IMG/VR virus record: IMGVR_UViG_3300013120_000602
Span: 1 to 33,001 of that record
Strand: one strand, 5' to 3'
DNA: 33,001 nt
Source of the DNA: a virus
The notes under the pieces are model-generated. The model did no database searches. It was not told the DNA's origin and was given only the letters and a program-made list of their open reading frames with translations. This document shows positions 4,153 through 27,202 of the stretch, piece after piece (position 1 is the stretch's first letter; each line of letters opens with the position of its first letter). The translations under genes were made by a program, and so were the position numbers.

Positions 4153-5016
4153 ATGAAAAGAATTATTGTTCTGGGGGGAACTGGTCTTTTAGGAACTCCA
4201 TTAGTAAAAAAATTAAAAGATATCAAAGATAATGTATATTCTATAGGTAATTTAAGTAAAGCAGATTTTCAAATAGATTTACTTGATACTTTTGATACAT
4301 TCAAATTTCTTACTGTGTTAAAACCTGCTTTAATTATTAATCTTGTAGCTTTAACTAATGTAGATAAAAATGAAGCAAATATACAAAAAGCTTATTTAAT
4401 AAACATCAAAACAATTGAAAATGTAGTAAATTGGATAATCAAAGAAAGTGTTCATAGTCATTTAATACATATTTCAACGGATCAAGTATATGATAATTTG
4501 GGGTATTCTAAAGAAAATGAGATTAATTTAACAAATATATATGCTCTTACTAAATATATGTCTGAATCGGTAGTAAAACAAGTACAGGCAACTGTATTAA
4601 GAACTAATTTTTTTGGGAAGAGTCAAACAAAAGACAGAATTAGTCTTAGTGATTGGTTAGTAGATGCTTTTAAAAATAGAAGAAAAATAGACCTGTTTAC
4701 TGATATTTATTTCAATCCATTACACTTTAGTACTTTAATTGAAATGATTATTAAAATAATAGATGCACCTGTTGGGGGGGTTTTTAATTTAGGTAGTAGA
4801 GATGGTTTAAATAAAATGGAATTTGCTCGATATTTAGCAAAAACATTAAATTTAGATGATTCAAATGCTTCAAATTCACTTTCATCAGAATATGGCTTTA
4901 AGGCTTGTAGACCTAAAAATATGTTAATGAATATTACTAATTTTGAACAAGTTTTTTATATAAAATTACCAACTTTAAAAGAAGAGATAGAGAGATTGAA
5001 AAATGATTATAGATAA
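4153..5016 (+). CDS. RmlD/RfbD-like NAD(P)-dependent sugar reductase (SDR family)
   Basis: 287 residues. The N-terminal Rossmann motif GGTGLLG (residues 8-14) is followed by VALTNVDKNE, ISTDQVYD and a YALTK catalytic Tyr-xxx-Lys, the series seen in dTDP-4-dehydrorhamnose reductases and related extended SDR enzymes. It would reduce a keto group of a nucleotide sugar. It is coupled to the NeuB-like gene by a 14-base overlap, so it probably acts in the same surface-sugar pathway rather than in rhamnose synthesis; no RmlA, RmlB or RmlC is nearby. The exact substrate cannot be read from sequence. Confidence 0.82.
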   Translation: MKRIIVLGGTGLLGTPLVKKLKDIKDNVYSIGNLSKADFQIDLLDTFDTFKFLTVLKPALIINLVALTNVDKNEANIQKAYLINIKTIENVVNWIIKESVHSHLIHISTDQVYDNLGYSKENEINLTNIYALTKYMSESVVKQVQATVLRTNFFGKSQTKDRISLSDWLVDAFKNRRKIDLFTDIYFNPLHFSTLIEMIIKIIDAPVGGVFNLGSRDGLNKMEFARYLAKTLNLDDSNASNSLSSEYGFKACRPKNMLMNITNFEQVFYIKLPTLKEEIERLKNDYR

Positions 5017-6073
5017 TAAAACAATAGACAAAGATAATCCTGTATATTTTATAGCTGATATCGGAGCTAATCATAATGGAGATTTGGAAAAAGCCAAAGA
5101 TTTGATTCATCTAGCTGCTGGATCTGGAGCAAATGCAGTTAAGTTTCAACATTTCCAAGCTGATACCATTGTTAGTGATTACGGCTTTAAACAAATAGGA
5201 AAACAAGGACATCAAGTTCAATGGAAAACCTCTGTCTATGAAGCTTATAAAAATGCTTCGATAGATTTAGAATGGACAGAAACATTGAAAAAGACATGTG
5301 ATTCAACAGGGATTACTTTTATGACTTCCCCTTATTCCTTTGATTTGGTAGATGTTGTTGATTCTTATGTTTCTGCCTATAAGATCGGTTCTGGTGACAT
5401 TACTTATATTGATCTCATTGAATATATTGCTAAAAAGAAAAAACCAATATTTCTTTCTACCGGAGCTTCTACTATGGGAGAGGTAAATGAAGCTATATAT
5501 CATATTTTATTGCATTTAAATAATTATAATTTAGTTTTGATGCAATGTAATACTAACTACACTATAAAATGGAAAAATTTTAGACATATAAATCTAAATG
5601 TGCTTCAATCCTATGTCTCTCTATATCCTCATTTAATATTAGGCTTGAGTGATCACTGTCCTGGTTATAGTAATGTCCTAGGAGCTGTGACTTTAGGAGC
5701 TAAGGTTATAGAAAAACATTTTACAGATAATAACAAGCAAAAAGGCCCTGATCATAAATTTGCTTTAACTTCTAATATGTGGACAGAAATGGTGATTAGA
5801 ACTAGAGAATTAGAAAATGCTTTGGGGGATGGGTTTAAAAGGGTTGAAGCAAATGAAAAAGAAACAAGAATATTACAAAGAAGATGTCTTAGAGTCAACA
5901 AAGACATACCTAAAAATATTATCTTAAAGTCTGAAGATATCGATATTCTAAGACCTTGCCCTATAGATGCAATTGAACCCTATAGAATTAAAGAAGTCTT
6001 AGGAAAAAAAGTTCTTCATGGTTTAAAAAAAGGAGAATATATTAAATGGTATGATTTAAAAGAGGAGAAATAA
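5003..6073 (+). CDS. neuB: NeuB-like N-acetylneuraminate/nonulosonic acid synthase
   Basis: 356 residues, the full length of the family. The TIM-barrel N-terminal part has IADIGANHNGD (about 18-28), VKFQ, KIGSGD, LSTGAS and LSDHC motifs, and EKHFTDN with GPDHKFAL near 230-250. The C-terminal part has the SAF/antifreeze-like domain (RRCLRVNKDIPKNI then EDIDILRPCP, ending GEYIKWYDL). These enzymes condense phosphoenolpyruvate with a six-carbon N-acyl amino sugar to form sialic, legionaminic or pseudaminic acid. The members (NeuB, LegI, PseI, SpsE) cannot be told apart here. Cytidylyltransferase, aminotransferase, acetyltransferase and dehydratase genes elsewhere in the window fit such a pathway. 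Confidence 0.92.
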   Translation: MIIDNKTIDKDNPVYFIADIGANHNGDLEKAKDLIHLAAGSGANAVKFQHFQADTIVSDYGFKQIGKQGHQVQWKTSVYEAYKNASIDLEWTETLKKTCDSTGITFMTSPYSFDLVDVVDSYVSAYKIGSGDITYIDLIEYIAKKKKPIFLSTGASTMGEVNEAIYHILLHLNNYNLVLMQCNTNYTIKWKNFRHINLNVLQSYVSLYPHLILGLSDHCPGYSNVLGAVTLGAKVIEKHFTDNNKQKGPDHKFALTSNMWTEMVIRTRELENALGDGFKRVEANEKETRILQRRCLRVNKDIPKNIILKSEDIDILRPCPIDAIEPYRIKEVLGKKVLHGLKKGEYIKWYDLKEEK

Positions 6074-6076
6074 GAA

Positions 6077-6163
6077 ATGACAATAGTTGATTTTGCTTTA
6101 GCTACATTTATTTTTTTAGGGATTAATTATTTTTTATTATGGAGTTGTTTGAAGGATTTTTAA
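6077..6163 (+). CDS. very small membrane peptide (28 residues)
   Basis: ATG at 6077 preceded by AGGAG at 6062-6066, open to TAA at 6161-6163. The peptide is almost entirely hydrophobic (FALATFIFLGINYFLLW) with a short basic/acidic end, so a single membrane helix is likely. It lies between two genes of the same operon. The call rests only on the RBS, the tight spacing and the clean hydrophobic profile. Confidence 0.4.
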   Translation: MTIVDFALATFIFLGINYFLLWSCLKDF

Positions 6164-6170
6164 GTTAATT

Positions 6171-6347
6171 ATGAAAGATATCATTGAGAATTGTTTTACT
6201 TGCAAAAATCGTATATCTAAAACTTATAATACTATTAGATGTAAAATATGGACTGAGAAACTAAGAAATTGGTTGATCCTTGATAATCCTGAAAAACATG
6301 ATCCTATGAATTTAGTAGGAAGACTATATCATGAAATAAAATGTTAA
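6171..6347 (+). CDS. small cysteine-containing hypothetical protein (58 residues)
   Basis: ATG at 6171, open to TAA at 6345-6347. The N-terminus has CFTC followed by a third cysteine in TIRCKIW and a last cysteine as the C-terminal residue, possibly a small metal site. Basic and aromatic residues are frequent. It sits among other small phage ORFs between the NeuB-like and cytidylyltransferase-like genes. No family recognised. Confidence 0.45.
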   Translation: MKDIIENCFTCKNRISKTYNTIRCKIWTEKLRNWLILDNPEKHDPMNLVGRLYHEIKC

Positions 6348-6370
6348 TATTATGATAAAGAGGAGAATTT

Positions 6371-6583
6371 ATGATTGTAAAAGTACAGATAAGTAAATAT
6401 ACAACAGGTGATACTCCTCAAATGCTTATCTATAACAAGGATCACAGTGTTATGCATCAAGATAACGCCACCAAAAAAATTATCAAAATGGTAGGTAAAG
6501 AAAAGAAACGATTTTTCTATTGCACAGTAAACAAAAAAGGAGTTATTAACCTTGAAAATATAGCTCCTTGGCAAAATTGGTAA
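6371..6583 (+). CDS. conserved small phage protein (70 residues)
   Basis: Starts at ATG 6371 after AGAGGAGAATTT, a strong RBS. The pattern IVKVQISKYTTGDTPQ, LIYNKDHSVMHQ and the ending IAPWQNW resembles a small protein I associate with many phage genomes, where it is annotated only as hypothetical. It has mixed beta-strand character and no membrane segment. Function unknown. Confidence 0.65.
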   Translation: MIVKVQISKYTTGDTPQMLIYNKDHSVMHQDNATKKIIKMVGKEKKRFFYCTVNKKGVINLENIAPWQNW

Positions 6584-6591
6584 AAATAAAA

Positions 6592-7395
6592 ATGACTAGA
6601 AAAAAACCAGAATCTTTAACAATGGCAGTCATCCAAGCTCGCTATGAATCAACTAGACTTCCAGGTAAAGTTTTACTGCCAATACTCAATAAACCTGTTC
6701 TTGAATGGATGTTGGAAAGAGTCTCCAAGGCTAAAACAGTTGATCACATTTGCATTACTGTTCCATATTCATCCAAAAGCAAGTACATTATAGATATCTG
6801 GAGAGATCGAAAATGGTCTAAATATTGTACAATCAGTTATGGGAATGCTGAGATGAATGATGTAATAGGTAGAGTGTTGGACGTCGTGGAAAAAAATGCA
6901 GGAGGAACAAGAATTCCTGATATTATCGTAGATTTAACAGGAGATTGTCCTTGTGTTGATCCAAGGCACATAGATTATTTAGTAAATAGATTTAAAGAAG
7001 ATGAATTAGACTACATTTCCAACAGTGAAATAGGCAAAATAATTCCCAGAACTTGGCCCAATGGAACAGATGTTCGAGCAGTCCGCTATCGAAGTTTGAA
7101 AGATGTTTACGACAAAATAGATAATCCAGTTCATAAATCACATGTCTCTTGGAATTTAACTATGTTCCCTGAGAGATACAAAATAGATTTTTGGGAACCT
7201 CCAGAGGATATAGCATTTCCTGAACTCCAAATAACATTAGACACCCCTGAAGATTATATATTTTTAACTGAGGTATTTAAAACATTTGGAAAGCAAGAAT
7301 GTTTTAGTGTAGATGATGTAATAAGATATTATCGAAGAAATCCTCATTTGATTACCAATAAAAAAGTAAAAAGAAAAATACCAGGAGAAGGGTGA
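6592..7395 (+). CDS. SpsF/NeuA-like cytidylyltransferase (nonulosonic acid activation)
   Basis: 267 residues from ATG 6592, which I prefer because an upstream TTG at 6568 would overlap the previous gene; ATG 6622 is also possible. The nucleotide-binding start is AVIQARYESTRLPGK, followed by LPILNKPVLEWMLERV, DLTGDCPCVDP and TLDTPEDY, the motifs of the CMP-KDO/CMP-sialate synthetase group and its SpsF branch. The reaction would couple a nonulosonic acid to CMP, making the donor for a glycosyltransferase. It fits downstream of the NeuB-like enzyme at 5003. An uncharacterised SpsF-like nucleotidyl- or glycosyltransferase role is the alternative. Confidence 0.82.
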   Translation: MTRKKPESLTMAVIQARYESTRLPGKVLLPILNKPVLEWMLERVSKAKTVDHICITVPYSSKSKYIIDIWRDRKWSKYCTISYGNAEMNDVIGRVLDVVEKNAGGTRIPDIIVDLTGDCPCVDPRHIDYLVNRFKEDELDYISNSEIGKIIPRTWPNGTDVRAVRYRSLKDVYDKIDNPVHKSHVSWNLTMFPERYKIDFWEPPEDIAFPELQITLDTPEDYIFLTEVFKTFGKQECFSVDDVIRYYRRNPHLITNKKVKRKIPGEG

Positions 7396-7649
7396 TGAGA
7401 AGTTTAAAAAATATTATTACTTTAATGTTATATGAAATCCCATTAGAAGAGGAGATTTTAAGATATGAACTTGAAGAAATAAAGTCCAGTTTATTATTTA
7501 CTGCTCCTGAAATGATGACTTTTAGATGGAACCAATGTGCTGCTATATTGAATGAAAATATTCAAAGAACAGATATGGATTGGGAAAAAGAAATACAGAG
7601 AATATTTGCAGGAAAACCAAAATATAAAGAAGTAAAACCATTAATGTAG
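7395..7649 (+). CDS. hypothetical phage protein (84 residues)
   Basis: ATG 7395 overlaps the preceding TGA (TGATG) and has GGAGAAGGG upstream; a GTG three bases earlier is also in frame. The N-terminal half is an acidic helix (YEIPLEEEILRYELEEIK) and the C-terminal end is basic. No domain recognised. It is the last intact gene before the cassette array. Confidence 0.62.
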   Translation: MRSLKNIITLMLYEIPLEEEILRYELEEIKSSLLFTAPEMMTFRWNQCAAILNENIQRTDMDWEKEIQRIFAGKPKYKEVKPLM

Positions 7650-7661
7650 AAAGGATATGTT

Positions 7662-7743
7662 ATGAAAAATATTATATGAACTAGGAAAAATAGAATTAGA
7701 AAGACAATTATTCAATCAAACAAATAAAAACAAAATCACATAA
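7662..7743 (+). pseudogene. short or broken ORF of cassette 1
   Basis: An ATG at 7662 with AAAGGA upstream reads only MKNII before TGA at 7677. A shift of one base opens 21 more codons (YELGKIELERQLFNQT...) that end with TAA inside the attC site at 7741. It looks like a start region that lost its frame and its 3' part. Alternatively cassette 1 is simply non-coding. Confidence 0.35.
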
Positions 7744-7838
7744 CAATTAGATCCACACTGACCAGAACTCAGTTATCAGTTGATTCGATATACTGATTTA
7801 TTGAAGCCGTTTTGCCAGGTGATCATGGTCGTTATGTG
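7737..7838 (+). repeat. attC-like recombination site A
   Basis: R'' box CACATAAC (7737-7744), 5-nt spacer AATTA, L'' GATCCACACTG, a variable centre, L' CCAGGTGATC, 6-nt spacer ATGGTC and R' GTTATGTG (7831-7838). The ends are inverted repeats. The inner arms pair apart from one unmatched C in L'', the usual extrahelical base of attC sites. Belongs to the subtype with an inner CAGAAC/GTTTTG pair. The 25 bases upstream of it match those upstream of site B. Confidence 0.8.
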
Positions 7839-7846
7839 AGGATTGA

Positions 7847-8479
7847 ATGAAAGATATCAATTTTGATACATTTATAAAAATTATAAAGGAAAACATAAAA
7901 GTGCATATTACCTTGCTCATTGTAAGTGGATTTATCATCTTTATCCAAGATGAAACTATCAAAGGAATCATAGGAATACAAATTCCAGTATATATAAAAC
8001 TATTTTTTCTAATTGTTTTTCTTATAGCATTTGTTGTATTTGTCTTAGATATTATTGAATGTTTATTCAATAGAAACAAAGAAGAGAAGAAGCAAGCTAT
8101 AAAAAAATTGAAAGAAATATTCCAAAATCCTAACTTAGGCAAAGAAATTGATCTGTTGTACGATTGGGATAGAATCTGTCAAGAAGAAGCACATAATGAA
8201 TATAAAAAACAATTACAACTCCCTATAAAAGAACGTTCTGAGAAATTTAACAGAACACATGAAACACGACAAAATTTCTCAAGATTTTTTGATCAAGCAT
8301 ATAAATATTATATAAAGAAGCTAATATGTAAACAACAACTAAAAAAGATAATAGCTGTGAGTCATGTAAGAGCTTTACTAGATGTAGTAGAGCCTTTGGA
8401 AAAACAAATTAGTGAAAATTATGATAAAAAACCATTTGATCATTTTAGAGATTTGTATGATAAAGAATTAAACAAATAA
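7847..8479 (+). CDS. cassette 2: two-helix membrane protein, SieB-like (putative exclusion protein)
   Basis: 210 residues; the ATG is 15 bases after the cassette junction, with GTGAGGA as RBS. Two membrane helices lie at about residues 18-31 (ITLLIVSGFIIFI) and 46-68 (IKLFFLIVFLIAFVVFVLDII), followed by an about 140-residue charged soluble domain. The layout and the 'IVSGFIIF...' first helix resemble the SieB superinfection-exclusion family of lambda/P22, which blocks growth of other phages, but lambda SieB is shorter and the match is only by eye. The gene ends ten bases before attC B, as cassette ORFs do. Confidence 0.7.
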   Translation: MKDINFDTFIKIIKENIKVHITLLIVSGFIIFIQDETIKGIIGIQIPVYIKLFFLIVFLIAFVVFVLDIIECLFNRNKEEKKQAIKKLKEIFQNPNLGKEIDLLYDWDRICQEEAHNEYKKQLQLPIKERSEKFNRTHETRQNFSRFFDQAYKYYIKKLICKQQLKKIIAVSHVRALLDVVEPLEKQISENYDKKPFDHFRDLYDKELNK

Positions 8480-8488
8480 AAACAAAAT

Positions 8489-8589
8489 CACATAACAATT
8501 AGATCCACCTGACCAAAACTCAGTTATCTGGTGATTTGATATACTGATTTATTGAAGTCGTTTTGCCAGGTGATCATGGTCGTTATGTT
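8489..8589 (+). repeat. attC-like recombination site B
   Basis: R'' CACATAAC (8489-8496), AATTA, L'' GATCCACCTG, centre with CAAAAC ... GTTTTG, L' CAGGTGATC, ATGGTC, R' GTTATGT (8582-8588). The L'' arm has one unpaired C against L'. The centre holds TCAGT/ACTGA that can pair as a terminal hairpin. Nearly identical to site D. Confidence 0.85.
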
Positions 8590-8643
8590 TAAGGAATTTA
8601 AAGACATTAAAACTATGATAATGAATTGCTGTGTGAGGAAAGG

Positions 8644-9195
8644 ATGAAAATAATAAACAATATACTAATTGGAATTGTTTCTAGTTTGTTTGTCTTTCTA
8701 ATTAGTATTGTTTGGAAATCAAATATGAATATAGAACTGAGAATACTAATTTGCTCATGGGCATTTTTTATTGCTTATTTTATATGTGATTGTTTCAAAG
8801 TTTGGAAGAATTACAAAGAACGGGCATATATAAAATTAAAGCAGAAATCTGAAGAGATAAAAATAACAGAAAAATTTACAAAAGTATGTCAATGGAGAAG
8901 GGAGCACCCAAATAAAGGTGAATATATAGAGCAACTTAAAAACATAAATAAGCACCCAGAATTCCTATCTATACATAATGATAGATATAACATTACAAAA
9001 CACTACCAAGACATACAAGAATGCCTTGATAAGGGTGCCATTACATCTAATGAATTTATATCACTTATACCGAAAAATAGAGCTAAAATATTATTGAATA
9101 TAATTGAGCCAATAGAAAAAGAAATGGATGATCTACCTAATTCAGATTATAATGATTCAGTATTTAGAACGATTGAAAAATATATAAAGATTTAA
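8644..9195 (+). CDS. cassette 3: two-helix membrane protein
   Basis: 183 residues from ATG 8644, chosen for the GTGAGGAAAGG ribosome binding site directly before it; a TTG at 8626 is in frame but lacks one. Helices lie at about 7-22 (ILIGIVSSLFVFLISIVW) and 32-50 (ILICSWAFFIAYFICDCF), then a basic soluble tail of about 130 residues. The topology repeats that of the cassette 2 and cassette 4 proteins but the sequences do not obviously align. Function unknown; a membrane-anchored defence or exclusion role is possible. The stop lies ten bases before attC C. Confidence 0.68.
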   Translation: MKIINNILIGIVSSLFVFLISIVWKSNMNIELRILICSWAFFIAYFICDCFKVWKNYKERAYIKLKQKSEEIKITEKFTKVCQWRREHPNKGEYIEQLKNINKHPEFLSIHNDRYNITKHYQDIQECLDKGAITSNEFISLIPKNRAKILLNIIEPIEKEMDDLPNSDYNDSVFRTIEKYIKI

Positions 9196-9204
9196 AAACA
9201 AAAT

Positions 9205-9304
9205 CACATAACAATTAGATCCACCTGACTGGAACTCAACTGATTTTTGGTTAGATTAGTTACTGGTAATAATCGTTCCAGCAGGTGATCATGGGTGTTA
9301 TGTG
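9205..9304 (+). repeat. attC-like recombination site C
   Basis: R'' CACATAAC (9205-9212), AATTA, L'' GATCCACCTG, centre with TGGAAC ... GTTCCA, L' CAGGTGATC, spacer ATGGGT, R' GTTATGTG (9297-9304). The second subtype: the inner CAAAAC/GTTTTG pair of sites B and D is replaced by TGGAAC/GTTCCA, so both arms change together. Confidence 0.85.
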
Positions 9305-9313
9305 AGGAAAGGA

Positions 9314-9817
9314 ATGATAAGAACAACAGACATGAAAAAAGCAATACTTAGTGCTGGAATTACATTAATAATAGCAGCACTGATGCAAAAGTATATAGAA
9401 CAATATTCTAATATTGTATTATTTGGAGCAATTTTAATATTAACAATAACTATACTTGGAGTTATTTATGATAATGTTTGGGGGATATTTAGTGATATTG
9501 AAACAAAGAAATCTGAATTATTTAAAGCTTATGAAAATCTAACAAAACATTTAAATGATGCTCTACAAAGATATCAAGTGTTTTCTGATAAGCAAATCAA
9601 AACAGACAACAAAAAATACACTGAAGAAGGTGTATTAGAAAAAATAAATGAAATTAGGAAGGCCATAAATAATTTTCTTCCCATAGCTAAAAAGCAAACT
9701 AGAAATTTACTGACAAATGAAGGTACAGAATGGTTAAATGATATAAACACTTTCGTTACTTATGCTCGTATATTTCAAAGAAAATTGATTGAAAGTATGA
9801 TTAAAGACAAAATTTAA
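9314..9817 (+). CDS. cassette 4, gene 1: two-helix membrane protein
   Basis: 167 residues from ATG 9314, 16 bases after the cassette junction, with GAGGAAAGG as RBS; a GTG at 9302 lies inside the attC core and is less likely. Helices at about 9-24 (AILSAGITLIIAALM) and 33-52 (IVLFGAILILTITILGVIY) are followed by a helical, Lys/Glu-rich cytoplasmic domain of about 115 residues. This is the third successive cassette with this design. No family recognised. Confidence 0.68.
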   Translation: MIRTTDMKKAILSAGITLIIAALMQKYIEQYSNIVLFGAILILTITILGVIYDNVWGIFSDIETKKSELFKAYENLTKHLNDALQRYQVFSDKQIKTDNKKYTEEGVLEKINEIRKAINNFLPIAKKQTRNLLTNEGTEWLNDINTFVTYARIFQRKLIESMIKDKI

Positions 9818-9839
9818 AATAAGAATGATATAATATAAA

Positions 9840-9872
9840 TAATTAAAGAAGTTATTATTAATCTTTTAATTA
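9840..9872 (+). other. AT-rich hairpin after gene 1 of cassette 4; TATAAT hexamer at 9829
   Basis: TAATTAAAGA (9840-9849) can pair with TCTTTTAATTA (9862-9872) with one bulged base. TATAAT at 9829-9834 is a good -10 hexamer but no convincing -35 lies at 17 bases, so a promoter for the next gene is only suggested. It may separate transcription of the two genes of this cassette. Confidence 0.3.
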
Positions 9873-9888
9873 AAGAAAGGATATTCTA

Positions 9889-10215
9889 ATGAAAAAAATA
9901 GTTAGTATTATTATATTTTTATTTATCTTTATGTCCTCAGTTACAAAAGTTTATGCAATAAAATCAGTAACAACTGATGATTGTGTAGCTTGTCTAACTG
10001 AAGAATGGTTGGAAGATATAATGAGTGCAGTTTCTGCTAAAGACATGAAAAGTATTACTGCTTATGTAAAAAGTGGTAAATGTATAAAATTAAAAGAAGG
10101 AATAGAAGTAACAATTACAAAATGGCCTGGAATGTTTGGAAGCACACAACAAATCATGTTTGAAGGTACTAAATTATGGGTAAATAGAGAAGGCACTACT
10201 GAAATTAGAGAATAA
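9889..10215 (+). CDS. cassette 4, gene 2: secreted small protein with signal peptide
   Basis: 108 residues. Residues 1-23 form a clear Sec signal peptide (KK, then IVSIIIFLFIFMSS, then a likely cleavage after VYA). The mature part has DDCVACL and later SGKCIKL, so disulfides in the periplasm are possible. The C-terminal part is beta-rich (IEVTITKW, IMFEGTKLWVNREG). Small exported proteins with a 'D..s...yv.sGkCi.l..g..v.i' pattern are common in bacteria, so this looks like bacterial cargo rather than a phage gene. RBS AAAGGA upstream. Function unknown. Confidence 0.7.
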   Translation: MKKIVSIIIFLFIFMSSVTKVYAIKSVTTDDCVACLTEEWLEDIMSAVSAKDMKSITAYVKSGKCIKLKEGIEVTITKWPGMFGSTQQIMFEGTKLWVNREGTTEIRE

Positions 10216-10234
10216 ATTAAATATATAAAAAGTA

Positions 10235-10267
10235 TTTGAGGGCAGAACTGAATGTCCTACCCTCAAA
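10235..10267 (+). terminator. hairpin after the secreted-protein gene
   Basis: TTTGAGGG (10235-10242) pairs with CCCTCAAA (10260-10267), eight base pairs around a 17-base loop, 20 bases after the stop of the secreted protein. No T-run follows, so it may be an RNA end-protecting hairpin rather than an intrinsic terminator. Confidence 0.45.
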
Positions 10268-10365
10268 ATTAAAGAAGCCAGATAATGATGATTAATACAG
10301 CAACCATAAATAAACTGACTTCTAAACTGAGATTAAATTTAAACATTTAGTATGTCCTTATTTAA

Positions 10366-10606
10366 ACTCAGGCCGGCCTGAGTGTTTCAAACATTCAGGT
10401 CATGTATATTTATTGAGCCCTAGCTGGCTCTATCCTTTAAAGTTTGATCAGGCTTTAAAGGAGTTCGAGAGTTTTCTTGAGATTAGCTAACTGACTCTCT
10501 CAATTAGCTTCTCAAAGATTGCTCCCATTAGCCCAGTTCAACATACTGGACACAGGCTTTGTTGATAGCCTAAGCCAGATACTTATACTAATTTATAAGT
10601 ATCTGG
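10366..10606 (+). ncRNA. chain of hairpins, possible structured RNA (part of a 470-base gene-free stretch)
   Basis: The gap 10216-10686 has no useful ORF but many inverted repeats, and it is richer in G and C than its surroundings. Arms: 10366-10383 (perfect 18-base palindrome around GGCCGGCC), 10377-10385 with 10391-10399, GAGCC 10415/GGCTC 10426, CCTTTAAAG 10434/CTTTAAAGG 10453, GAGAGT 10467/ACTCTC 10494, CCAGT 10533/ACTGG 10545, AGGCT 10554/AGCCT 10567, and a 13-bp hairpin 10575-10587 with 10594-10606. Such density suggests a folded RNA or a hairpin array. It does not match tRNA, and I recognise no known RNA class. Confidence 0.4.
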
Positions 10607-10686
10607 TCTAATTAAAATATAACATGAAGAGATAATAAGTACAAATAAAATAAAATAATTTATACAGTAAAAAGGAAAATATTGAT

Positions 10687-10968
10687 ATGGATGAAGAAAG
10701 ACTACTAGCAAGAGGAAGTTTTGAAGAATATAAAGATCAACTCTCAAGTATACACATACAAATAAGAACATTATTACAAGATGTACATAGAAAAACTCCT
10801 ATTATAAATATTCCTAGAAAATTAATTGTAGATGTCTCTGATATAGATATTAAAGGAGCAAAAGTATTATTAAATAGTCTAGAGGATTTATTAGAAAAAC
10901 AAAATAATTTAATCGGCAAATTAAAAATTCTTTCTGATAAATGGAAATTTAACTTAAAGATTGAGTAA
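10687..10968 (+). CDS. cassette 4, gene 3: small helical protein (93 residues)
   Basis: ATG 10687 with AAAAGGA upstream. Mostly helical and charged (FEEYKDQLSSIHIQIRTLLQ; LLNSLEDLLEKQNNLIGKL) with a central strand-like IINIPRKLIVDVSDIDI. No membrane segment or signal peptide. The stop lies seven bases before attC D, which places it as the 3' gene of the cassette. A role with the structured stretch just upstream is possible but not shown. Confidence 0.6.
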   Translation: MDEERLLARGSFEEYKDQLSSIHIQIRTLLQDVHRKTPIINIPRKLIVDVSDIDIKGAKVLLNSLEDLLEKQNNLIGKLKILSDKWKFNLKIE

Positions 10969-10974
10969 TAATTT

Positions 10975-11075
10975 CACATAACAATTAGATCCACCTGACC
11001 AAAACTCAGTTATCTGGTGATTTGATATACTGATTTATTAAAGTCGTTTTGCCAGGTGATCATGGTCGTTATGTG
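10975..11075 (+). repeat. attC-like recombination site D
   Basis: R'' CACATAAC (10975-10982), AATTA, L'' GATCCACCTG, centre with CAAAAC ... GTTTTG, L' CAGGTGATC, ATGGTC, R' GTTATGTG (11068-11075). It differs from site B at very few positions. It separates the 93-residue gene from the EcoRI-type genes. Confidence 0.85.
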
Positions 11076-11123
11076 TACATTACGACAGTAAACAACAATA
11101 GATTTGAGTAAAAAAGGCATAAT

Positions 11124-11960
11124 ATGGCTAAAAAGAATCAATCAAAAAGATTGACAAATCAACACAAAGGATCTCAAGGTGTAGTTGGTATTTTTGGAGA
11201 TAAAGCAAAATTGCATGATATAACAGTTGGAAAGATATCACATCTTGTAATTGAACAACTTACAAAAGAATATCCACAATTATCATTTCAACATAGAACA
11301 AGTATCAAAAAGGAGGAAATAAACGAAGCGTTAAAGAAAATTGATCCTGCGTTAGGGCAAACCCTTTTTGTGCCAAACGCAAGTATTATACCTGATGGAG
11401 GGATAATAGAAGTAAAAGACGATAATGATAATTGGAGGATAATTTTAGTATCAGAAGCTAAACATCAAGGAAAAGACATTGAAAATATAAAAGCAGGAAA
11501 ACTTGTGGGAGCAAAAAATAATCAAGACTTGATGGCTGCTGGTAATGCAATAGAGAGATCACATAAAAATATATCCGAAATTGCTAATTTTATGCTATCT
11601 GAATTACATTTTCCTTATGTTTTATTTCTTGAAGGCTCAAATTTTTTAACAGAAACTATTACAATTGAAAGACCTGATGGCAGAGTTGTAACACTAGAGT
11701 ACAATTCAGGGATGTTAAATAGATTAGATAGGTTGACCTCCGCAAATTATGGAATGCCAATTAATACCAATTTATGTAAAAATAAATTTGTTAAGCATAA
11801 GGATAAAACAATTATGCTTCAAGCAACTTCAATCTACACACAGGGAAATGGAGAGAGATGGGATGCTGAAAAAATGTTTGAAATTATGATTGAAATATCT
11901 AAAACTTCTCTTAAAGCATTGGGGAGTGATTTATTTACTCAGATTACAACCAATAAGTGA
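11124..11960 (+). CDS. ecoRIR: EcoRI-family type II restriction endonuclease
   Basis: 278 residues, against 277 for EcoRI, and close to EcoRI along its whole length as I remember that protein. The catalytic PD...ExK residues fall at the same numbers: Asp91 in IIPDGGI, Glu111 and Lys113 in SEAKHQGKD. The recognition helix segment MAAGNAIERSHKNISE places Glu144 and Arg145 as in EcoRI, and the GMPIN segment near Arg200 (LNRLDRL) is kept. It should act as a homodimer cutting G^AATTC. The cognate methyltransferase follows at 37 bases, and both lie in one cassette between attC D and attC E. At least six GAATTC sites occur in this window (3777, 6911, 8959, 15121, 22035, 25422), so the DNA needs the methylase. 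No break or frameshift is seen. Confidence 0.96.
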   Translation: MAKKNQSKRLTNQHKGSQGVVGIFGDKAKLHDITVGKISHLVIEQLTKEYPQLSFQHRTSIKKEEINEALKKIDPALGQTLFVPNASIIPDGGIIEVKDDNDNWRIILVSEAKHQGKDIENIKAGKLVGAKNNQDLMAAGNAIERSHKNISEIANFMLSELHFPYVLFLEGSNFLTETITIERPDGRVVTLEYNSGMLNRLDRLTSANYGMPINTNLCKNKFVKHKDKTIMLQATSIYTQGNGERWDAEKMFEIMIEISKTSLKALGSDLFTQITTNK

Positions 11961-11997
11961 TTAAACCCTAACGAAGACATAAATAAATAGGTTAATA

Positions 11998-13059
11998 ATG
12001 ACAAGAAAAGCAACAAATAAATTATTGCAAAAAGCAAAGAAGTCTAAAAGTGATGAGTTTTATACCCAACTTTGTGACATTGAGAGTGAATTGCAGCATT
12101 ATAAGATACACTTTAGTGACAAAGTTGTTCTTTGTAATTGTGACGATCCTAGAATAAGTAATTTCTTTAAGTATTTTGCTAATAACTTTGAAGACTTAGG
12201 TATTAGGAAAATATTAACATCTTGTTATAAAGAACGAGCAGGAGATTTATTTAATTATGGGAATAAAGAAAGTGGGTTTTTCTTTGAATACAAAGGCTTT
12301 GAAACAGAGAATTATAATCAATTAGATGTTAATTACTTCAAGGGAAGTGGTGATTTTCGTAGTACAGAAAGCATTGAGTTGTTAAAACAATCTGACATTG
12401 TTGTTACAAATCCACCATTCTCATTATTTAGGGAATATGTTGAACAACTTGTCAAATACAATAAAAAGTTTTTAATAATTGGAAATGTAAATGCAATAAC
12501 ATACAAAGAAATATTTAAACTAATTAAAGAAAACAAAGCGTGGTTGGGGATAAATCTCGGTAGAGGTGTTTCTGGTTTTATTGTCCCAGAACATTATGAA
12601 CTTTATGGAACAGAGGCTCGGATTGATGATTTAGGAAATAGAATAGTCTCTCCTAATAATTGTTTATGGCTAACAAACTTAGATACTTCTAAACGGCACG
12701 AGGATATTATCCTCACAAAAAAATATTTTGGAAACGAATATAAATACCCAAAATATGATAATTATGATGGAATTAATGTTAATAAGACAAAAGATATCCC
12801 ATTTGATTATAAGGGAGCTATGGGTGTTCCAATAACATTCCTGCATAAATTCAACCCTGATCAATTTGAAATAATTAAATTTAGAAAAGGGGATGATGAA
12901 AAGGATTTGGCGATCAATGGGAAATGCCCATATTTCAGAATACTTGTAAAAAATAAGAGAATCCAAACAAAATCTATTAGACAGGAAAAGGATAATAGTA
13001 TTAAGATAAACAGTATAATAAAGAAAAAATTTAGACAATTATCTTTATTTTCTGAATAA
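11998..13059 (+). CDS. ecoRIM: EcoRI-family adenine DNA methyltransferase
   Basis: 353 residues. The N-terminus (TRKATNKLLQKAKKSKSDEFYTQ region) and most of the length follow M.EcoRI as I remember it. Key motifs are CNCDDPR (about 48-54), the catalytic NPPF in VVTNPPFSLFREY (about 138-150), and GRGVSGFIVPEHYELYGTEAR. It is expected to methylate the inner adenine of GAATTC. It is about 25 residues longer than M.EcoRI at the C-terminus. The start ATG lies 37 bases after the endonuclease stop, the same R-then-M order as in the plasmid system. The stop is 19 bases before attC E. Confidence 0.95.
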   Translation: MTRKATNKLLQKAKKSKSDEFYTQLCDIESELQHYKIHFSDKVVLCNCDDPRISNFFKYFANNFEDLGIRKILTSCYKERAGDLFNYGNKESGFFFEYKGFETENYNQLDVNYFKGSGDFRSTESIELLKQSDIVVTNPPFSLFREYVEQLVKYNKKFLIIGNVNAITYKEIFKLIKENKAWLGINLGRGVSGFIVPEHYELYGTEARIDDLGNRIVSPNNCLWLTNLDTSKRHEDIILTKKYFGNEYKYPKYDNYDGINVNKTKDIPFDYKGAMGVPITFLHKFNPDQFEIIKFRKGDDEKDLAINGKCPYFRILVKNKRIQTKSIRQEKDNSIKINSIIKKKFRQLSLFSE

Positions 13060-13078
13060 AAAACAAAACAATAACAAT

Positions 13079-13176
13079 CACATAACAATTAGATGCACCT
13101 GACTGGAACTCGACAACCAGTGATTATATTACTGTTAGTCAGTTCATCGTTCCAGCAGGTGATCATGGTGTTAATA
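13079..13176 (+). repeat. attC-like recombination site E (array end)
   Basis: R'' CACATAAC (13079-13086), AATTA, L'' GATGCACCTG, centre with TGGAAC ... GTTCCA and CAGT/ACTG, L' CAGGTGATC, spacer, then GTTAATA (13170-13176) instead of GTTATGT. Bases after the G of this core belong to whatever follows, so the change from TTATG to TTAAT marks the end of cassette DNA and the return to phage sequence. Confidence 0.82.
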
Positions 13177-13195
13177 ACAAAAAAAGGAGAGAAAA

Positions 13196-13513
13196 ATGAT
13201 TAATAAAGAAATTCAAACAAATACAGAATTGTGGAAAATCATAAAAGAATCCGAAGTAACAGTAGAATTTATAAAGAAAGATAAAACAAAAAGAGAGATG
13301 AAATGTACTTTGGATTTCGACAAGATCCCAAAGAAAGATTATCCCAAAAGTGACATAAAAGAAATTGATACATTAGAAAAAATGAAAGCTAAAAAAATAT
13401 TAGCTATGTATGATCTGGAGAAACAAGGTTGGAGATCTATTCCTATTGATCGGTTGAATTGGTTAAAATGTAATGATATTCAGTATTTTATAAATATTAA
13501 ATTTGAAGACTAA
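13196..13513 (+). CDS. phage SH3-like beta-barrel fold protein
   Basis: 105 residues with a strong AAAAAGGAGAG RBS. The pattern VTVEFIKKDKTKREMKCTL, IPKKDYP, then MYDLEKQGWRSIPIDRLNW is typical of a small protein found in many T4-like and other phages and annotated as SH3 beta-barrel fold-containing. Function is not established. It is the first gene after the cassette array and is clearly phage, in contrast to the cassette cargo. Confidence 0.72.
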   Translation: MINKEIQTNTELWKIIKESEVTVEFIKKDKTKREMKCTLDFDKIPKKDYPKSDIKEIDTLEKMKAKKILAMYDLEKQGWRSIPIDRLNWLKCNDIQYFINIKFED

Positions 13514-14664: not shown

Positions 14665-15678
14665 ATGGGAATAAAACAATATTCAGTAGCCATTATCGGT
14701 TGTGGAAGTATAGGAGCATTGAAACCAGATAAATATGATTCACCAGAGACAGATAATGTTTTAACTTGGGGACATGCCTTCTATAACCATCCACAATTTT
14801 CAGAGATAGTCTTTATTGATATCGATAGAACAAAAGCAGAACAAGCAGCTAAAAAATGGGGGGGAACTTCTCATACTCGACTACCATTAACCTTACAAAC
14901 ATTCAAACCAGATATTATAGTAGTTGCTTTAAATACAGAAAAACATTTCCAAACTTTCTTAGATATCACTAAAATAGATAATTACAAACCAAAAGTAGTT
15001 ATTGCAGAAAAACCTTTCACAAATTCAACATATCAAGCCCAAGTTATCTCTGAATTATATCAAAGATTAGAAATACCTCTAATTGTTAATTATCACCGAA
15101 GATTTGTAACCTCTATCTTAGAATTCAAAAATAAGATAGATTATAATTTATGTATTCCTGTCTATAATTGTATCTTATATTATACTAGAGGATTAAAAAG
15201 AGATGGTTCTCATGGGATAGATTTAATGAGATTTTTCTTCGGAGATTATTTAGAAGGGAAAATACTAGATACAAAACCTCCTTTAATTGATTATCATGAA
15301 ACAGACCCTACTTATACAGTTCATATGTCTTTTGAAAAATGTCATAATATTTTTCTTTGTCCTATTGATGGTAGAGAATATGATCTGTTTGAATTTGATA
15401 TAACAACTAAAGAAGGAAGATTTAAATTTGTAGATCATTCTCAATATTACCAATTTCATGAGAGAATACCAGAACCAACTTATGGAAATTATGATACTTT
15501 AAATTTTATTCCCAAAGTTACTCAAAAAACAAAACTAACTTCTACATTATCAAGAGTAGTTCAAACTGCTGTTAATCATATAGAGAAAGGTATAACAAAT
15601 CCTAGTACATCTAAGAATGCCATAGAAGTACATAGAATAATGGATGATTTACTACTAAAAAGGATAGATAATAAATGA
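14665..15678 (+). CDS. Gfo/Idh/MocA-family NAD(P)-dependent oxidoreductase
   Basis: 337 residues. N-terminal Rossmann fold with VAIIGCGSIGALKPD (residues 7-21), then DIDRTKAEQAAKKWG and VVIAEKPFT, the EKP-type motif of the family near residue 113. The C-terminal part is a mixed beta domain with YHRRF and GSHGIDLMRFFFGD, where histidine acts in the catalytic site. These enzymes oxidise or reduce sugars, often nucleotide sugars (WbpB/WlbA type). The aminotransferase gene overlaps its stop, as in pathways that oxidise C3 and then aminate it. Confidence 0.85.
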   Translation: MGIKQYSVAIIGCGSIGALKPDKYDSPETDNVLTWGHAFYNHPQFSEIVFIDIDRTKAEQAAKKWGGTSHTRLPLTLQTFKPDIIVVALNTEKHFQTFLDITKIDNYKPKVVIAEKPFTNSTYQAQVISELYQRLEIPLIVNYHRRFVTSILEFKNKIDYNLCIPVYNCILYYTRGLKRDGSHGIDLMRFFFGDYLEGKILDTKPPLIDYHETDPTYTVHMSFEKCHNIFLCPIDGREYDLFEFDITTKEGRFKFVDHSQYYQFHERIPEPTYGNYDTLNFIPKVTQKTKLTSTLSRVVQTAVNHIEKGITNPSTSKNAIEVHRIMDDLLLKRIDNK

Positions 15679-17003
15679 GCATATTAGCAATTAATGGAGG
15701 AGAATCTGTTAGAAAGAATTTATTTCCTAATCAAATAAACATAGGAAAGGAAGAAACAGAAGCAGTAAATAAAGTATTAGAATCAAAATCATTATCAGCT
15801 TTCAGAGGGACTTGGAGACATGAAGCTCCAGGATTTTGGGGAGGGGAACAAGTTCAAGCTGTGGAAAAAGAATGGTCTGAATATTTTAACACTCAACATA
15901 GCATTTCTGTCAACAGTTGTACTAGTGCCTTACAAATAGCTTGTGGAGCAGCAGGGATTGGTCCTGGAGATGAAGTTATTGTTTCCCCTTGGTCGATGTG
16001 TTGTTCTGCCACAGCTCCTATGATTTGGAATGGAACACCTATTTTTGCTGATTTAGACCCAGAGAATTTTTGTCTCTCTCCTAAGTCAGTTAAAAATAAA
16101 ATAACAAAGAGAACCAAAGCCATTATTTATGTAGATCTTTTTGGAACTGTAGGTAGAATACAAGAAATAATGGCCATCGCAAAAGAACATAATTTGATTG
16201 TTATAGAAGATGCAGCACAAGCCATAGGATCAAAATATGAAGATCAATGGGCAGGTACTATTGGAGATATAGGTTGTTTCTCTTTTACTCAAGGAAAACA
16301 TCTAACTTGTGGTGAAGGTGGGATGATAATAACAGACAATCTTGATTTAGCTATGAGATGTAGATTAATTAAAAATCATGCAGAAGCAGTTATTGATGAT
16401 ATGGGAAAAGGAGATATTACAAAATATGCTAAAATCTTGAAATATAACATGCTTGGTTTCAATATGAGAATGACAGAAATACAAGCAGCTATAATTAGAG
16501 AACAATTAAAAAAGTTAAAAGGTTTTGTAGAGACTAGACGAGATATTGCTTATTATCTCAATGAAAAATTATCCGAAATACCTCCTATAAAACTTCCAAC
16601 TTATCCCTATGAATGCACTAATTCCTTTTATGTTCAGCCCTTTATTTGGGACACAAAAAAAGCTGAAGGAGTATCAAGAAATAATTATATTGTTGCTGTA
16701 TCTGCTGAATTAACAGGTGAAATTGGAAGACCTGATAGAAAAATGCTAACTTGTGGATATGTTGCTCCTCTCTATAGAATGCCATTGTTTCAAAATAAAA
16801 GGTTATATAAAAAAACGATTTCTCCTTTTATCCCTGATCTAGAATATGCTGCTTGTAATCATCCTAAAGTAGAGAAACTTTGGAGAGAAGAAATATTTAT
16901 TAGTTTATTACCAAATTTACCACTAAATAAAACTGACTTAGAAGACATAGTTGAAGCCTTCGTCAAAGTTTGGGAATATAGAGATGAAATATCAGGAAAT
17001 TAA
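15675..17003 (+). CDS. DegT/DnrJ/EryC1-family PLP-dependent sugar aminotransferase
   Basis: 442 residues, slightly longer than usual. PLP-site motifs: NSCTSALQIA (80-89), the Asp in VIEDAAQAIGS (Asp179) and the Schiff-base lysine in SFTQGKHLTCGEGG (Lys208). YNMLGFNMRMTEIQAA near 250-265 is the family's dimer/substrate segment. It transfers an amino group from glutamate to a keto nucleotide sugar. It overlaps the oxidoreductase stop (ATGA). Partners could be that oxidoreductase (a 3-amino sugar) or the dehydratase at 18265 (a 4-amino sugar as in PseC/LegC). Confidence 0.9.
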   Translation: MSILAINGGESVRKNLFPNQINIGKEETEAVNKVLESKSLSAFRGTWRHEAPGFWGGEQVQAVEKEWSEYFNTQHSISVNSCTSALQIACGAAGIGPGDEVIVSPWSMCCSATAPMIWNGTPIFADLDPENFCLSPKSVKNKITKRTKAIIYVDLFGTVGRIQEIMAIAKEHNLIVIEDAAQAIGSKYEDQWAGTIGDIGCFSFTQGKHLTCGEGGMIITDNLDLAMRCRLIKNHAEAVIDDMGKGDITKYAKILKYNMLGFNMRMTEIQAAIIREQLKKLKGFVETRRDIAYYLNEKLSEIPPIKLPTYPYECTNSFYVQPFIWDTKKAEGVSRNNYIVAVSAELTGEIGRPDRKMLTCGYVAPLYRMPLFQNKRLYKKTISPFIPDLEYAACNHPKVEKLWREEIFISLLPNLPLNKTDLEDIVEAFVKVWEYRDEISGN

Positions 17004-17013
17004 AACTATTTGA

Positions 17014-17748
17014 ATGTCCCAAGAAAAAATTAAATATCCCAAGTTAGAATTACATAAAGAAATAGAATATTTTAAAATGCTCCCTAATCCAGAAATAAAA
17101 GAAAGATTAATCTGTTCTTTTTTATTTCTAGTTGACAGAATAGTTAAAAAATATAAAAAATATTCTCACTATGAAGATGATTTAACTCAAGAAGGAATAT
17201 TAGGACTCATTCGAGCTGTTGAGAAATATGAAATTGATAAAGGAATCTCTTTCAAATTATATGCTTCTTGGTGGATTGTACTATATATAAAAAGAACTTT
17301 AAATAAACAAGTTACATTTATACAAACACCCAAATATGTTACTGATATTGCTGAGTATATCATAAGACACAAAATTGATTATAAAAGTAATAACTTAATA
17401 AAATTAGCTAAATCTTTAAATATTAAAATAAGTTTTCTAGAAAAAGCTATTTATTATCTAGAGAACCCGATGATAATTAATTATGATTATACTGAAATAG
17501 AAACAACAGATAATTTTGCTATAAAACATGAAAAAAAAGAAGTAAAACAAAAAATCATTTCTAAATTATATTATTTAGATGCAAAGGAAAAAATCGTAGT
17601 TAAAATGTTCTTTGGAATAAACCCATATAGAAAACATACATTACAAGAAATTGGAGAAATTTTTCAACGAAGTAATGTAAGAATCCATCAAATAAAAAAT
17701 GAAGCAATTAAAAAATTAAAGAAGGAAATCAAAGATGATTTTATTTGA
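17014..17748 (+). CDS. sigma-70 family RNA polymerase sigma factor
   Basis: 244 residues. Region 2 is clear: DDLTQEGILGLIRAVEKYE followed by FKLYASWWIVLYIKRTLNKQ (about residues 54-93), the core-binding and -10 recognition helices. Region 4 appears as LDAKEKIVVKMFFGIN then HTLQEIGEIFQRSNVRIHQIKNEAIKKL (about 189-235), with a helix-turn-helix. No anti-sigma gene is adjacent. It sits within the glycan block and overlaps the next gene, so it may be co-expressed. It could direct host polymerase to phage promoters such as the AT-rich tandem repeats, but that is inference. Confidence 0.88.
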   Translation: MSQEKIKYPKLELHKEIEYFKMLPNPEIKERLICSFLFLVDRIVKKYKKYSHYEDDLTQEGILGLIRAVEKYEIDKGISFKLYASWWIVLYIKRTLNKQVTFIQTPKYVTDIAEYIIRHKIDYKSNNLIKLAKSLNIKISFLEKAIYYLENPMIINYDYTEIETTDNFAIKHEKKEVKQKIISKLYYLDAKEKIVVKMFFGINPYRKHTLQEIGEIFQRSNVRIHQIKNEAIKKLKKEIKDDFI

Positions 17749-18268
17749 ACCTATATCACCAAAAGAAGAAGAACTACTTGAAATTGCCAAATGGAGAAAT
17801 GAATCTCTTATCTATTTACGATCTCTAAAACCAACTCCCATAGATTTTGAACATCAATGGAAATGGGTGTATGAATCAATACAAAAAGAAAATAAATATT
17901 ATTTCATTTATTCTGCTATAAAAGATGACTTTTGGGAAAATAAAAATAAATTTATTGGGTATTGTGGTTTTAATAATATTAATAAAAAAAGTAAATATGC
18001 AGAGATGAGTCTTTTAATTGGGCCAGAATTTAGAAATAAGGGATATGGCAAAGAAGCAGCTTTAAAGTTATTAAATATAGGTTTTAGAGTGTTTAATTAT
18101 AATTGCATCTTTATCGAAGTCTATAAAACAACAAATGTTTGGGAAGACTTTTGTAGAAAACTAAGATTTCAACAAGAAGGAATTTTAAGAGACCGTACTT
18201 TATGGCAAAATAAATATTATGACAGTACCATTGGATCTATACTACAAAAAGAATGGGGTAAATCATGA
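17735..18268 (+). CDS. GNAT acetyltransferase (RimJ/RimL or PseH-like)
   Basis: 177 residues. The layout follows Acetyltransf_3: an N-terminal WRNESLIYLRS, then FIGYCGFNNI, the acetyl-CoA binding motif A in GPEFRNKGYGKEAALKLLN (about 89-107), FIEVYKTTN and FRKLRFQQEGILRD. PseH and similar enzymes N-acetylate the 4-amino group of UDP-amino sugars, and the neighbouring aminotransferase and dehydratase fit this. A protein-acetylating role cannot be excluded. Overlaps both neighbours. Confidence 0.82.
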   Translation: MILFEPISPKEEELLEIAKWRNESLIYLRSLKPTPIDFEHQWKWVYESIQKENKYYFIYSAIKDDFWENKNKFIGYCGFNNINKKSKYAEMSLLIGPEFRNKGYGKEAALKLLNIGFRVFNYNCIFIEVYKTTNVWEDFCRKLRFQQEGILRDRTLWQNKYYDSTIGSILQKEWGKS

Positions 18269-19218
18269 ATTTTTACAAGGGTTTAGAGATATTGATTCTC
18301 GGCGGTGTAGGGAGCTTAGGAAAAACATTAACCAAATTATTATTAAAGAAATATAGTCCAAAAGGAATCAGATTATTTTCTAGAGATGAATTTAAACAGT
18401 GGAATTTTAAAAAGGAAATCAAAAACTTAGGATATCTAGATAAAGTTTCTTTTATTATTGGAGATGTTAGAGATCTACAAAGTTTGACCTTGGCTATGGA
18501 AAGGGTTGATATTGTTTTTTCATGTGCTGCCATGAAACAGATACCAGCCTGCGAAGATAACCCTATACAAGCAACCCAAACAAATATCATTGGAAGTCAA
18601 AATGTGATATTAGCTGCCCAAAAAACTAAGCCTTTGAAAGTCATGAATATCAGCACAGATAAATGTGTACACCCGTCGAATCTCTATGGAGCTACTAAAA
18701 TGTGTGGTGAAAAATTATTTACTCATGCCTCTGTCTACACTGGAGGAAGACAGCCTTATTTTGCCTCTTGTCGATATGGAAATGTATTAGCTTCCAGAGG
18801 TTCTATTATCCCATTATTTAGAGAACAAATAGCACAAAACAAACCTATAACCATAACACATCCAAGCATGACAAGATTTTGGATATCCTTAGAGAAAGTT
18901 GCTCAATTTCTTTTAGATAGAGTTCAAGAAATTAAAGGGGGAGAAATCTATGTTCCCAAAATGCCTAGCACTACAGTTCTTAATATAGCCAAAGCTTTAA
19001 AACATGATATAGAATTTAATATTATTGGTTTAAGAAAAGGTGAAAAAATGCATGAAGAATTAATTGGAATTGAAGAAGGATATTATACTCTTATAAATAA
19101 AGATTATTATATAATTACTAATAAAAACAGAATGGCACCCACTTTTTCTTATAATAGTCAAAATAATCCTCTTTTTTTAAAATTAGAAGAGACTAAAAAA
19201 ATGATAGAAAGTATTTAA
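18265..19218 (+). CDS. PseB/FlaA1/CapD-like UDP-N-acetylglucosamine 4,6-dehydratase
   Basis: 317 residues. Cofactor motif LGGVGSLGKTL (residues 12-22), then FIIGDVRD, CAAMKQIPACEDNP, NISTDKCVHPSNLYGATKMCGEKLF with the catalytic YGATK, then CRYGNVLASRGSIIP and MTRFWI. These are the signatures of the short soluble PseB/FlaA1 type rather than the membrane-bound CapD type. The enzyme starts pseudaminic acid or related 6-deoxy amino sugar synthesis. The ATG overlaps the acetyltransferase stop. A UDP-hydrolase (PseG/NeuC type) was not found in the window. Confidence 0.9.
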   Translation: MNFYKGLEILILGGVGSLGKTLTKLLLKKYSPKGIRLFSRDEFKQWNFKKEIKNLGYLDKVSFIIGDVRDLQSLTLAMERVDIVFSCAAMKQIPACEDNPIQATQTNIIGSQNVILAAQKTKPLKVMNISTDKCVHPSNLYGATKMCGEKLFTHASVYTGGRQPYFASCRYGNVLASRGSIIPLFREQIAQNKPITITHPSMTRFWISLEKVAQFLLDRVQEIKGGEIYVPKMPSTTVLNIAKALKHDIEFNIIGLRKGEKMHEELIGIEEGYYTLINKDYYIITNKNRMAPTFSYNSQNNPLFLKLEETKKMIESI

Positions 19219-19241
19219 AAAGCCAATAAGGAGATGAATTT

Positions 19242-19415
19242 TTGAATATAAAAAAAATAATAGTCTCATCCAATCTCAGGAACTCTAGATTACATAGAAT
19301 AATTAAAAATGAAGCTAAAAAAAACAATCGAACTATTAGTGCAGAGATAGCCTATGTACTCGAAGACTACTATAAGAAAAATACTAAAAATAATAAAGGA
19401 GGAATTATTAAATAA
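19242..19415 (+). CDS. Arc/MetJ-like ribbon-helix-helix protein (57 residues)
   Basis: TTG start at 19242 preceded by AAGGAG at the right distance, open to TAA at 19413-19415. The layout is that of Arc-type repressors: a short strand (IKKIIVSSNLR), helix RLHRIIKNEAKKNN, turn, then RTISAEIAYVLEDYYKK. Such proteins dimerise and insert a two-strand sheet in the major groove. It may autoregulate the following acetyltransferase and downstream genes. Confidence 0.62.
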   Translation: MNIKKIIVSSNLRNSRLHRIIKNEAKKNNRTISAEIAYVLEDYYKKNTKNNKGGIIK

Positions 19416-19416
19416 A

Positions 19417-19992: not shown

Positions 19993-20305
19993 TCAAGATT
20001 TTAATATATTTTTAGAAATGATCTTAGAAAGAATAAAAAAAACATTAGGGAAGAAAGGGGAGGAATATGGAATCCCTTCTAGTCGATTTTCTAATTTTGA
20101 AGATATTGCTGAAGTAACCAAATTACCCCTAGAAGAAGGTGCTTTTATATTAATGTTAAAGCACTTTACAATAATCACAGATATTTGTATGAAGCGATAT
20201 CCAGCAAATAAAATAACAAAGGATCTTATTACTGAAAAATTTGGTGACTGTATTAATTATCTAATACTTATAGAAGGAATATTAAAGGAGAAATTAAAGG
20301 AATAA
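19985..20305 (+). CDS. DUF1599/nucleotide-modification-associated-like protein
   Basis: 106 residues. The order TLGKKGEEYG, RFSNFEDIAE, EEGAFILMLKHFTII, and EKFGDCINYLILIEGIL resembles small all-helical phage and bacterial proteins annotated DUF1599/Nmad1, which share features of MazG-like nucleotide pyrophosphohydrolases. The match is by pattern only. If right it could act on modified or free nucleotides and is not obviously tied to sugars. It ends three bases before the large glycosyltransferase gene. Confidence 0.6.
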   Translation: MTNQDFNIFLEMILERIKKTLGKKGEEYGIPSSRFSNFEDIAEVTKLPLEEGAFILMLKHFTIITDICMKRYPANKITKDLITEKFGDCINYLILIEGILKEKLKE

Positions 20306-20307
20306 TT

Positions 20308-27183: not shown

Positions 27184-27202
27184 TTTTAAATCCTTTCCTT
27201 AA

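Follow-up and report, generated by a model that had tools for sequence, protein, structure and literature searches.

Integron-type cassettes with an EcoRI-type restriction-modification pair in the genome fragment of a probable tailed phage

The subject of this work is a 33,001-base fragment of a viral genome from IMG/VR (record IMGVR_UViG_3300013120_000602, positions 1 to 33,001; the whole stretch is called the window below), in which positions 7660-13170 are taken up by five repeated sites and the small genes between them. We consider it likely that this region is a genuine array of integron cassettes with no accompanying integrase gene, known as a CALIN (cluster of attC sites lacking an integron integrase), which a tailed phage captured by means of the integrase IntI of a host. 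As judged from its sequence, the last cassette of the array is a complete EcoRI type II restriction-modification (R-M) system of adjacent endonuclease and adenine methyltransferase genes, and a related EcoRI pair is bracketed by attC sites in a second phage.

The five repeats can be aligned across about 100 nt and have the anatomy of attC sites (Table 1). Read along the top strand, they comprise R'' (CACATAAC), the 5-nt spacer AATTA, L'' of the form GAT-C-CACCTG-A-, a centre that varies, L' (CAGGTGATC), a second spacer that is 6 nt long except in site 5, where it has 5 nt, and an R' that starts with GTT. R'' and R' are inverted core arms with AAC and GTT at the crossover end, apart from a terminal mismatch in site 2 and differing outer R' bases in site 5. 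Five attC sites at this place and in this orientation had been proposed in the original prediction, which was made from the sequence alone, and the anatomy, our attC scorer, and the second of two covariance models (R2; see below) agree with it. Two of its details hold for only some of the sites, however. The extrahelical C said to occur in every L'' is present in sites 2-4, where the top strand has C, 6 nt, and then A in the same spacing as in the class 1 attCs of aadA, aadB, and qac, but in site 5 the C is replaced by G, and site 1 is shifted by an extra A. Likewise, the 6-nt spacer followed by a common R' end is perfect in sites 1, 3, and 4 (GTTATGTG), but site 2 ends in GTTATGTT and site 5, with its shorter spacer, in GTTAATAA. 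These ends deviate because the outer R' bases belong to whatever follows the site: to the next cassette in site 2 and, as expected for insertion into a secondary site, to the flank of the array in site 5. The L arms form 9 of 9 pairs in sites 2-5 (in site 5 with the spacer of 5 nt) and 6 of 9 in site 1, owing to its additional A. The bottom strands, folded as single-stranded DNA, exceed the stability of dinucleotide shuffles in sites 2-5 (z -3.5 to -6.3), while site 1 reaches only -1.8. Three compensatory pair changes in the distal L stem separate two groups of sites (CAAAAC/GTTTTG vs. TGGAAC/GTTCCA), which is supportive of the attC reading though not decisive, given that the five sites are related to each other.

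For an assessment by similarity to known sites, we used a custom-built scorer and custom-built covariance models (not those of IntegronFinder or HattCI) trained on attCs from class 1 cassettes on plasmids, a Vibrio and a Shewanella phage integron, and phage TJE1, whose geometry was verified before use and which included no sequence of the window. The null distribution consisted of the best hits from 300 Markov-shuffled versions of the window, one per shuffle (95th percentile 14.0, maximum 24.2), against which sites 3, 4, 2, and 1 scored 38.2, 35.3, 35.3, and 20.4; the attCs in the published CALIN of phage MW202573, which was kept out of training as a positive control and was also run with R2, scored 18-26. 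With R2, which allows for a variable centre, the five sites took the first four places and the sixth among the hits in the window (29.3, 28.2, 28.2, 18.8, and 14.5 bits), with E-values that should be taken as rough. Neither outcome that the prediction had named as refuting it was thus seen: A model trained on outside sequences places the predicted sites atop the window, and no transposon or intron family accounts for the repeats. Rfam contains no match to them, and searches of phage and plasmid records yielded no homologous repeats; a pattern scan of viral contigs with GATYCACCTGAYNNNAACTC and a second attC pattern gave matches that were not attCs of the kind seen in the window. It is highly improbable that the repeats are another type of repeated hairpin such as terminators, transposon ends, or a phage regulatory element. 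They are indeed hairpins downstream of genes, and attCs themselves are thought to be weak terminators (PMC9892861), but the canonical attC geometry including both extrahelical bases, the high ranks in a model of known attCs, the compensatory changes, the cassette starts complementary to R'', and the lack of an Rfam match speak against such elements.

The sites divide the region into five cassettes of the same direction, with G/TT crossovers at 7659/7660, 7831/7832, 8582/8583, 9297/9298, 11068/11069, and 13170/13171. As had been predicted, all five cassettes begin with TTATG (at 7660, 7832, 8583, 9298, and 11069), which complements the R'' CACATAAC of their own attC and so fits what circular cassettes require, and their open reading frames (ORFs) start shortly past the crossovers and stop right upstream of the attCs. 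CALINs are recognized by at least two clustered attC sites in array order, and the five sites found here lie in one direction within 5.4 kb. No match to the integron integrase family TIGR02249 was found in the 33,001-base contig, in agreement with the claim that no integrase is near, and the array is therefore classified as a CALIN. It sits at a G/TT between two small ORFs, one encoding 85 aa and the other a WYL_2-like protein. Without the array, AAAGGATATG would directly adjoin TTAATAAC, and the joining of 7650-7659 to 13171-13195 would leave an intergenic gap of 35 nt, which fits the expectation for an insertion. An alternative that we regard as improbable, though less so than the others considered here, is that the attCs are real but that the array entered by homologous or illegitimate recombination with a host array, its cassettes being passive cargo. 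The contig does lack an integrase, and Qi et al. suggested such routes for some phages (PMC9892861), but both ends of the array fall exactly on a G/TT crossover, which illegitimate recombination would not favor.

That the contig is a phage genome seems well supported to us, with a small residual probability of a chimera or a prophage boundary. Its right third carries baseplate wedge, baseplate J-like, and tail fibre families, and phage families also occur left of and after the array (split SbcC-like and SbcD-like proteins, a phrog_15167 ATPase, phrog_1086, phrog_4652, the sigma factor phrog_351, and phrog_6802), so that the array has phage markers on both sides, in agreement with the original proposal. 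If the contig were chimeric, or a bacterial chromosome beside a prophage, the array would come from a bacterial chromosomal integron, with phage DNA confined to the right third. Such an origin would suit the GC content of the right module (0.342), which exceeds that of the rest (0.284-0.290), the richness of the left part in sugar-biosynthesis genes that are common in bacteria as well, and the fact that the sole near-identical contig found, L036 in IMG/VR, matches at 99% identity over 27026-32385 only. We nevertheless judge it unlikely because phage-type genes are scattered through the left and middle parts, GC content is equal on either side of the array (0.290 on its left, 0.287 within it, 0.284 on its right), and both array ends are exact G/TT crossovers located 10 and 26 bp from the neighboring ORFs.

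Several observations weigh against capture of a true cassette array by a phage. Site 5 is marginal when taken alone (scorer 10.7 with a relaxed 3' filter; R2 E 0.38), and our first covariance model, R1, which contained an artificial GAAA tetraloop, missed the full-length sites of the window (below 13 bits) even though it detected sites in MW202573 and in locus L001 of the second phage. We ascribe this failure to the lack of space for the central insert in R1; R2, trained on the same outside sequences with that space added, recognizes the sites. The contig is a 33-kb fragment, and an intI gene could lie elsewhere in the phage. No relative with an empty insertion site turned up when sister phages were sought via the NeuB-like gene and the ORF at 13888. 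The GAATTC sites of the phage are not clearly avoided (7 observed vs. 8.8 expected), so that its protection would hinge on a working methylase. Finally, no bacterial array with the attC family of the window was found in our genome scans: The attC 3' motif gave two isolated matches without attC structure in about 85,000 genomes, and the L''..L' pattern gave three single matches, taken as chance, in 694 Pseudomonadota and Bacteroidota genomes, so that these scans point to no donor of the cassettes.

If the array was captured in the way that we favor, the phage would have infected, or passed through, an integron-bearing host whose IntI, acting in trans, would recombine the folded bottom strand of the cassette attCs. 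The cassettes would then have entered, singly or as a block, a secondary G/TT site in the narrow space between the 85-aa ORF and the WYL_2-like gene. They retain foldable attCs and, given IntI in trans, should be excisable and exchangeable. The EcoRI pair, if expressed, would methylate the GAATTC sites of the phage itself and cleave competitor DNA that lacks the modification.

Neither the EcoRI cassette nor the structured stretch in cassette 4 (see below) had been part of the original prediction. The endonuclease aligns to the solved EcoRI structure along its full length, and retains the catalytic residues D91, E111, and K113; the pair shares about 75% identity with EcoRI of E. coli and is predicted by homology to cleave and methylate GAATTC. 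The same two proteins in the same order are found on small enterobacterial plasmids (for example NZ_CP103650 and NZ_LR890494; endonuclease identity 74.6-77%), but, unlike the window, the six EcoRI stretches from plasmid and phage records that we examined have no attC at the threshold of the scorer. A survey of 398 Pseudomonadota genomes gave only two distant members of the EcoRI family. Among viral contigs, relatives of the EcoRI-type methyltransferase occur at 195 loci vs. 13 loci with EcoRI endonucleases, which implies that most of the former are probably orphan methylases. A locus at 9959-11602 of a 258-kb IMG/VR contig (L003) encodes an EcoRI endonuclease without its N-terminal third beside a full-length methyltransferase and a transposase-like ORF, with no attC sites.

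The second phage, G003 (contig IMGVR 3300025030_001165; loci L001, L071, and L072), is otherwise unrelated to the window phage and encodes head-tail adaptor, neck, tape-measure, and tail proteins, which identifies it as a tailed phage. Its EcoRI pair shares 80% nucleotide identity with that of the window and is flanked by attCs at L001 4140-4229 and 6182-6272 that belong to another attC family. Locus L002 shows the same attC-EcoRI-attC arrangement and possibly represents this phage in a different sample. G003 also has a CALIN of its own (L071 9233-17529) with about six attC-like sites, a Mrr-type nuclease, MunI, MT-A70, and small proteins without assigned function; the MunI endonuclease (PF11407, E 2e-82) and the MT-A70 methyltransferase lie between sites at L071 11313-11404 (score 28.5) and 13234-13323 (weaker, 10.6). 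No match to IntI was found in G003. Across 968 kb of viral loci with EcoRI-family genes, sites above 16.3 were limited to G003 and L002, and no other EcoRI-family locus was bracketed by attCs.

Table 1. Features of the cassette array and its immediate neighbors (positions refer to the window).
Feature	Positions	Strand	Details
Left flanking ORF	7392-7649	+	85 aa; stop 10 bp upstream of array
Cassette 1	7660-7831	+	172 bp; no ORF of useful size; between G/TT crossovers
attC site 1	7737-7838	+	One extra A in L''; scorer 20.4; R2 18.8 bits; fold z -1.8
Cassette 2	7832-8582	+	ORF 7847-8479, 210 aa
attC site 2	8489-8589	+	Scorer 35.3; R2 28.2 bits; bottom-strand DNA fold z -3.89
Cassette 3	8583-9297	+	ORF 8644-9195, about 183 aa
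attC site 3	9205-9304	+	Scorer 38.2; R2 29.3 bits; fold z -6.27
Cassette 4	9298-11068	+	ORFs 9314-9817, 9889-10215, 10687-10968; structured stretch 10216-10690
Candidate structured non-coding RNA	10216-10690	- (more likely)	475 nt; z -8.49 (minus), -7.56 (plus); terminator-like hairpin 10267-10235
attC site 4	10975-11075	+	Scorer 35.3; R2 28.2 bits; fold z -4.52
Cassette 5	11069-13170	+	EcoRI-type R-M cassette
EcoRI restriction endonuclease	11124-11960	+	278 aa; PF02963 E 2e-151; PDB 1CKQ/1ERI E 7e-135
EcoRI-type adenine methyltransferase	11998-13059	+	353 aa; PF13651 E 1e-128; NPPF motif present
attC site 5	13079-13177	+	Scorer 10.7 (relaxed 3' filter); R2 14.5 bits; fold z -3.54
Right flanking phage-type gene (WYL_2 / phrog_1086)	13196-13513	+	Start 26 bp downstream of array

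The remaining cassettes are less readily interpreted. Cassette 1, whose tail resembles that of cassette 2, is probably a remnant. The proteins of cassettes 2 and 3 both have hydrophobic helices at the N-terminus and are distant homologues (BLASTP 23% identity, pairwise E 9e-8); an AlphaFold2 model of the former (pLDDT 54.6) was not used. Searches of Pfam, PADLOC, and PHROG returned no family for these two proteins or for the three ORFs of cassette 4. The stretch at 10216-10690, for which we found neither an Rfam family nor DNA relatives, may be a non-coding RNA carried in cassette 4, as suggested by its predicted fold. Taken with the EcoRI pair, the two related membrane-type proteins make the cargo look like genes for phage-host warfare. 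Outside the array, the regions 4153-7395 and 14665-23103 encode a NeuB-like synthase, a cytidylyltransferase, epimerases, a DegT aminotransferase, acetyltransferases, and a 931-aa Maf/MptE-like glycosyltransferase, which together look like a set for nonulosonic acid synthesis and glycosylation.

CALINs in virulent phages have been described by Qi et al. (2023), who reported methyltransferases among the cargo and studied Tetrasphaera phage TJE1, Polaribacter phage P12002L, Pseudoalteromonas phage H101, and the Myoviridae phage MW202573 (PMC9892861). The array in the window resembles theirs in its attC sites within a phage genome, the absence of intI, its small-ORF cassettes, and a DNA methyltransferase in the cargo, but differs in its attC sequences, in the candidate structured RNA of 475 nt, and in its complete EcoRI R-M pair, given that their main text lists five cassette methyltransferases and no endonuclease (PMC9892861). 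In bacteria, chromosomal and mobile integrons have been characterized as biobanks of defence systems (Darracq et al. 2025 and Kieffer et al. 2025, as cited in PMC12409362), where attC sites likewise flank small cassettes for antiphage defence, among them type II restriction systems; those biobanks are bacterial arrays, whereas the array in the window lies on a phage contig without an integrase. Our literature search, which covered few subscription papers, found no EcoRI or complete R-M pair described as a phage-borne cassette. While phage CALINs are thus already published, complete type II R-M cassettes that recur in two phages appear to be new.

Bacteria exchange accessory genes in large part through integron cassettes, which according to published studies also bank antiphage systems. 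If our reading is true, the R-M cassettes in two otherwise unrelated phages with two attC families (EcoRI twice and MunI once) would mean that viruses carry these defences and possibly spread them; phages can hold such genes and probably move them. The prediction had envisaged a phage as vehicle that moves cassettes between hosts, which is plausible by analogy since IntI1 recombined five of the six phage attCs tested by Qi et al. (PMC9892861). A broader idea, which we offer tentatively and consider rather less likely to be right than wrong, is that phages keep a circulating cassette pool of their own for conflicts with other phages and with hosts, in which R-M systems (EcoRI in the window phage and G003, MunI/MT-A70 in G003) would move between unrelated phages and host integrons via host IntI and become re-tagged with different attC families. 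The R-M cassettes also suggest a possible cassette route for the dissemination of EcoRI-type systems, and the shuttling of cassettes by phages through host IntI becomes a testable question.

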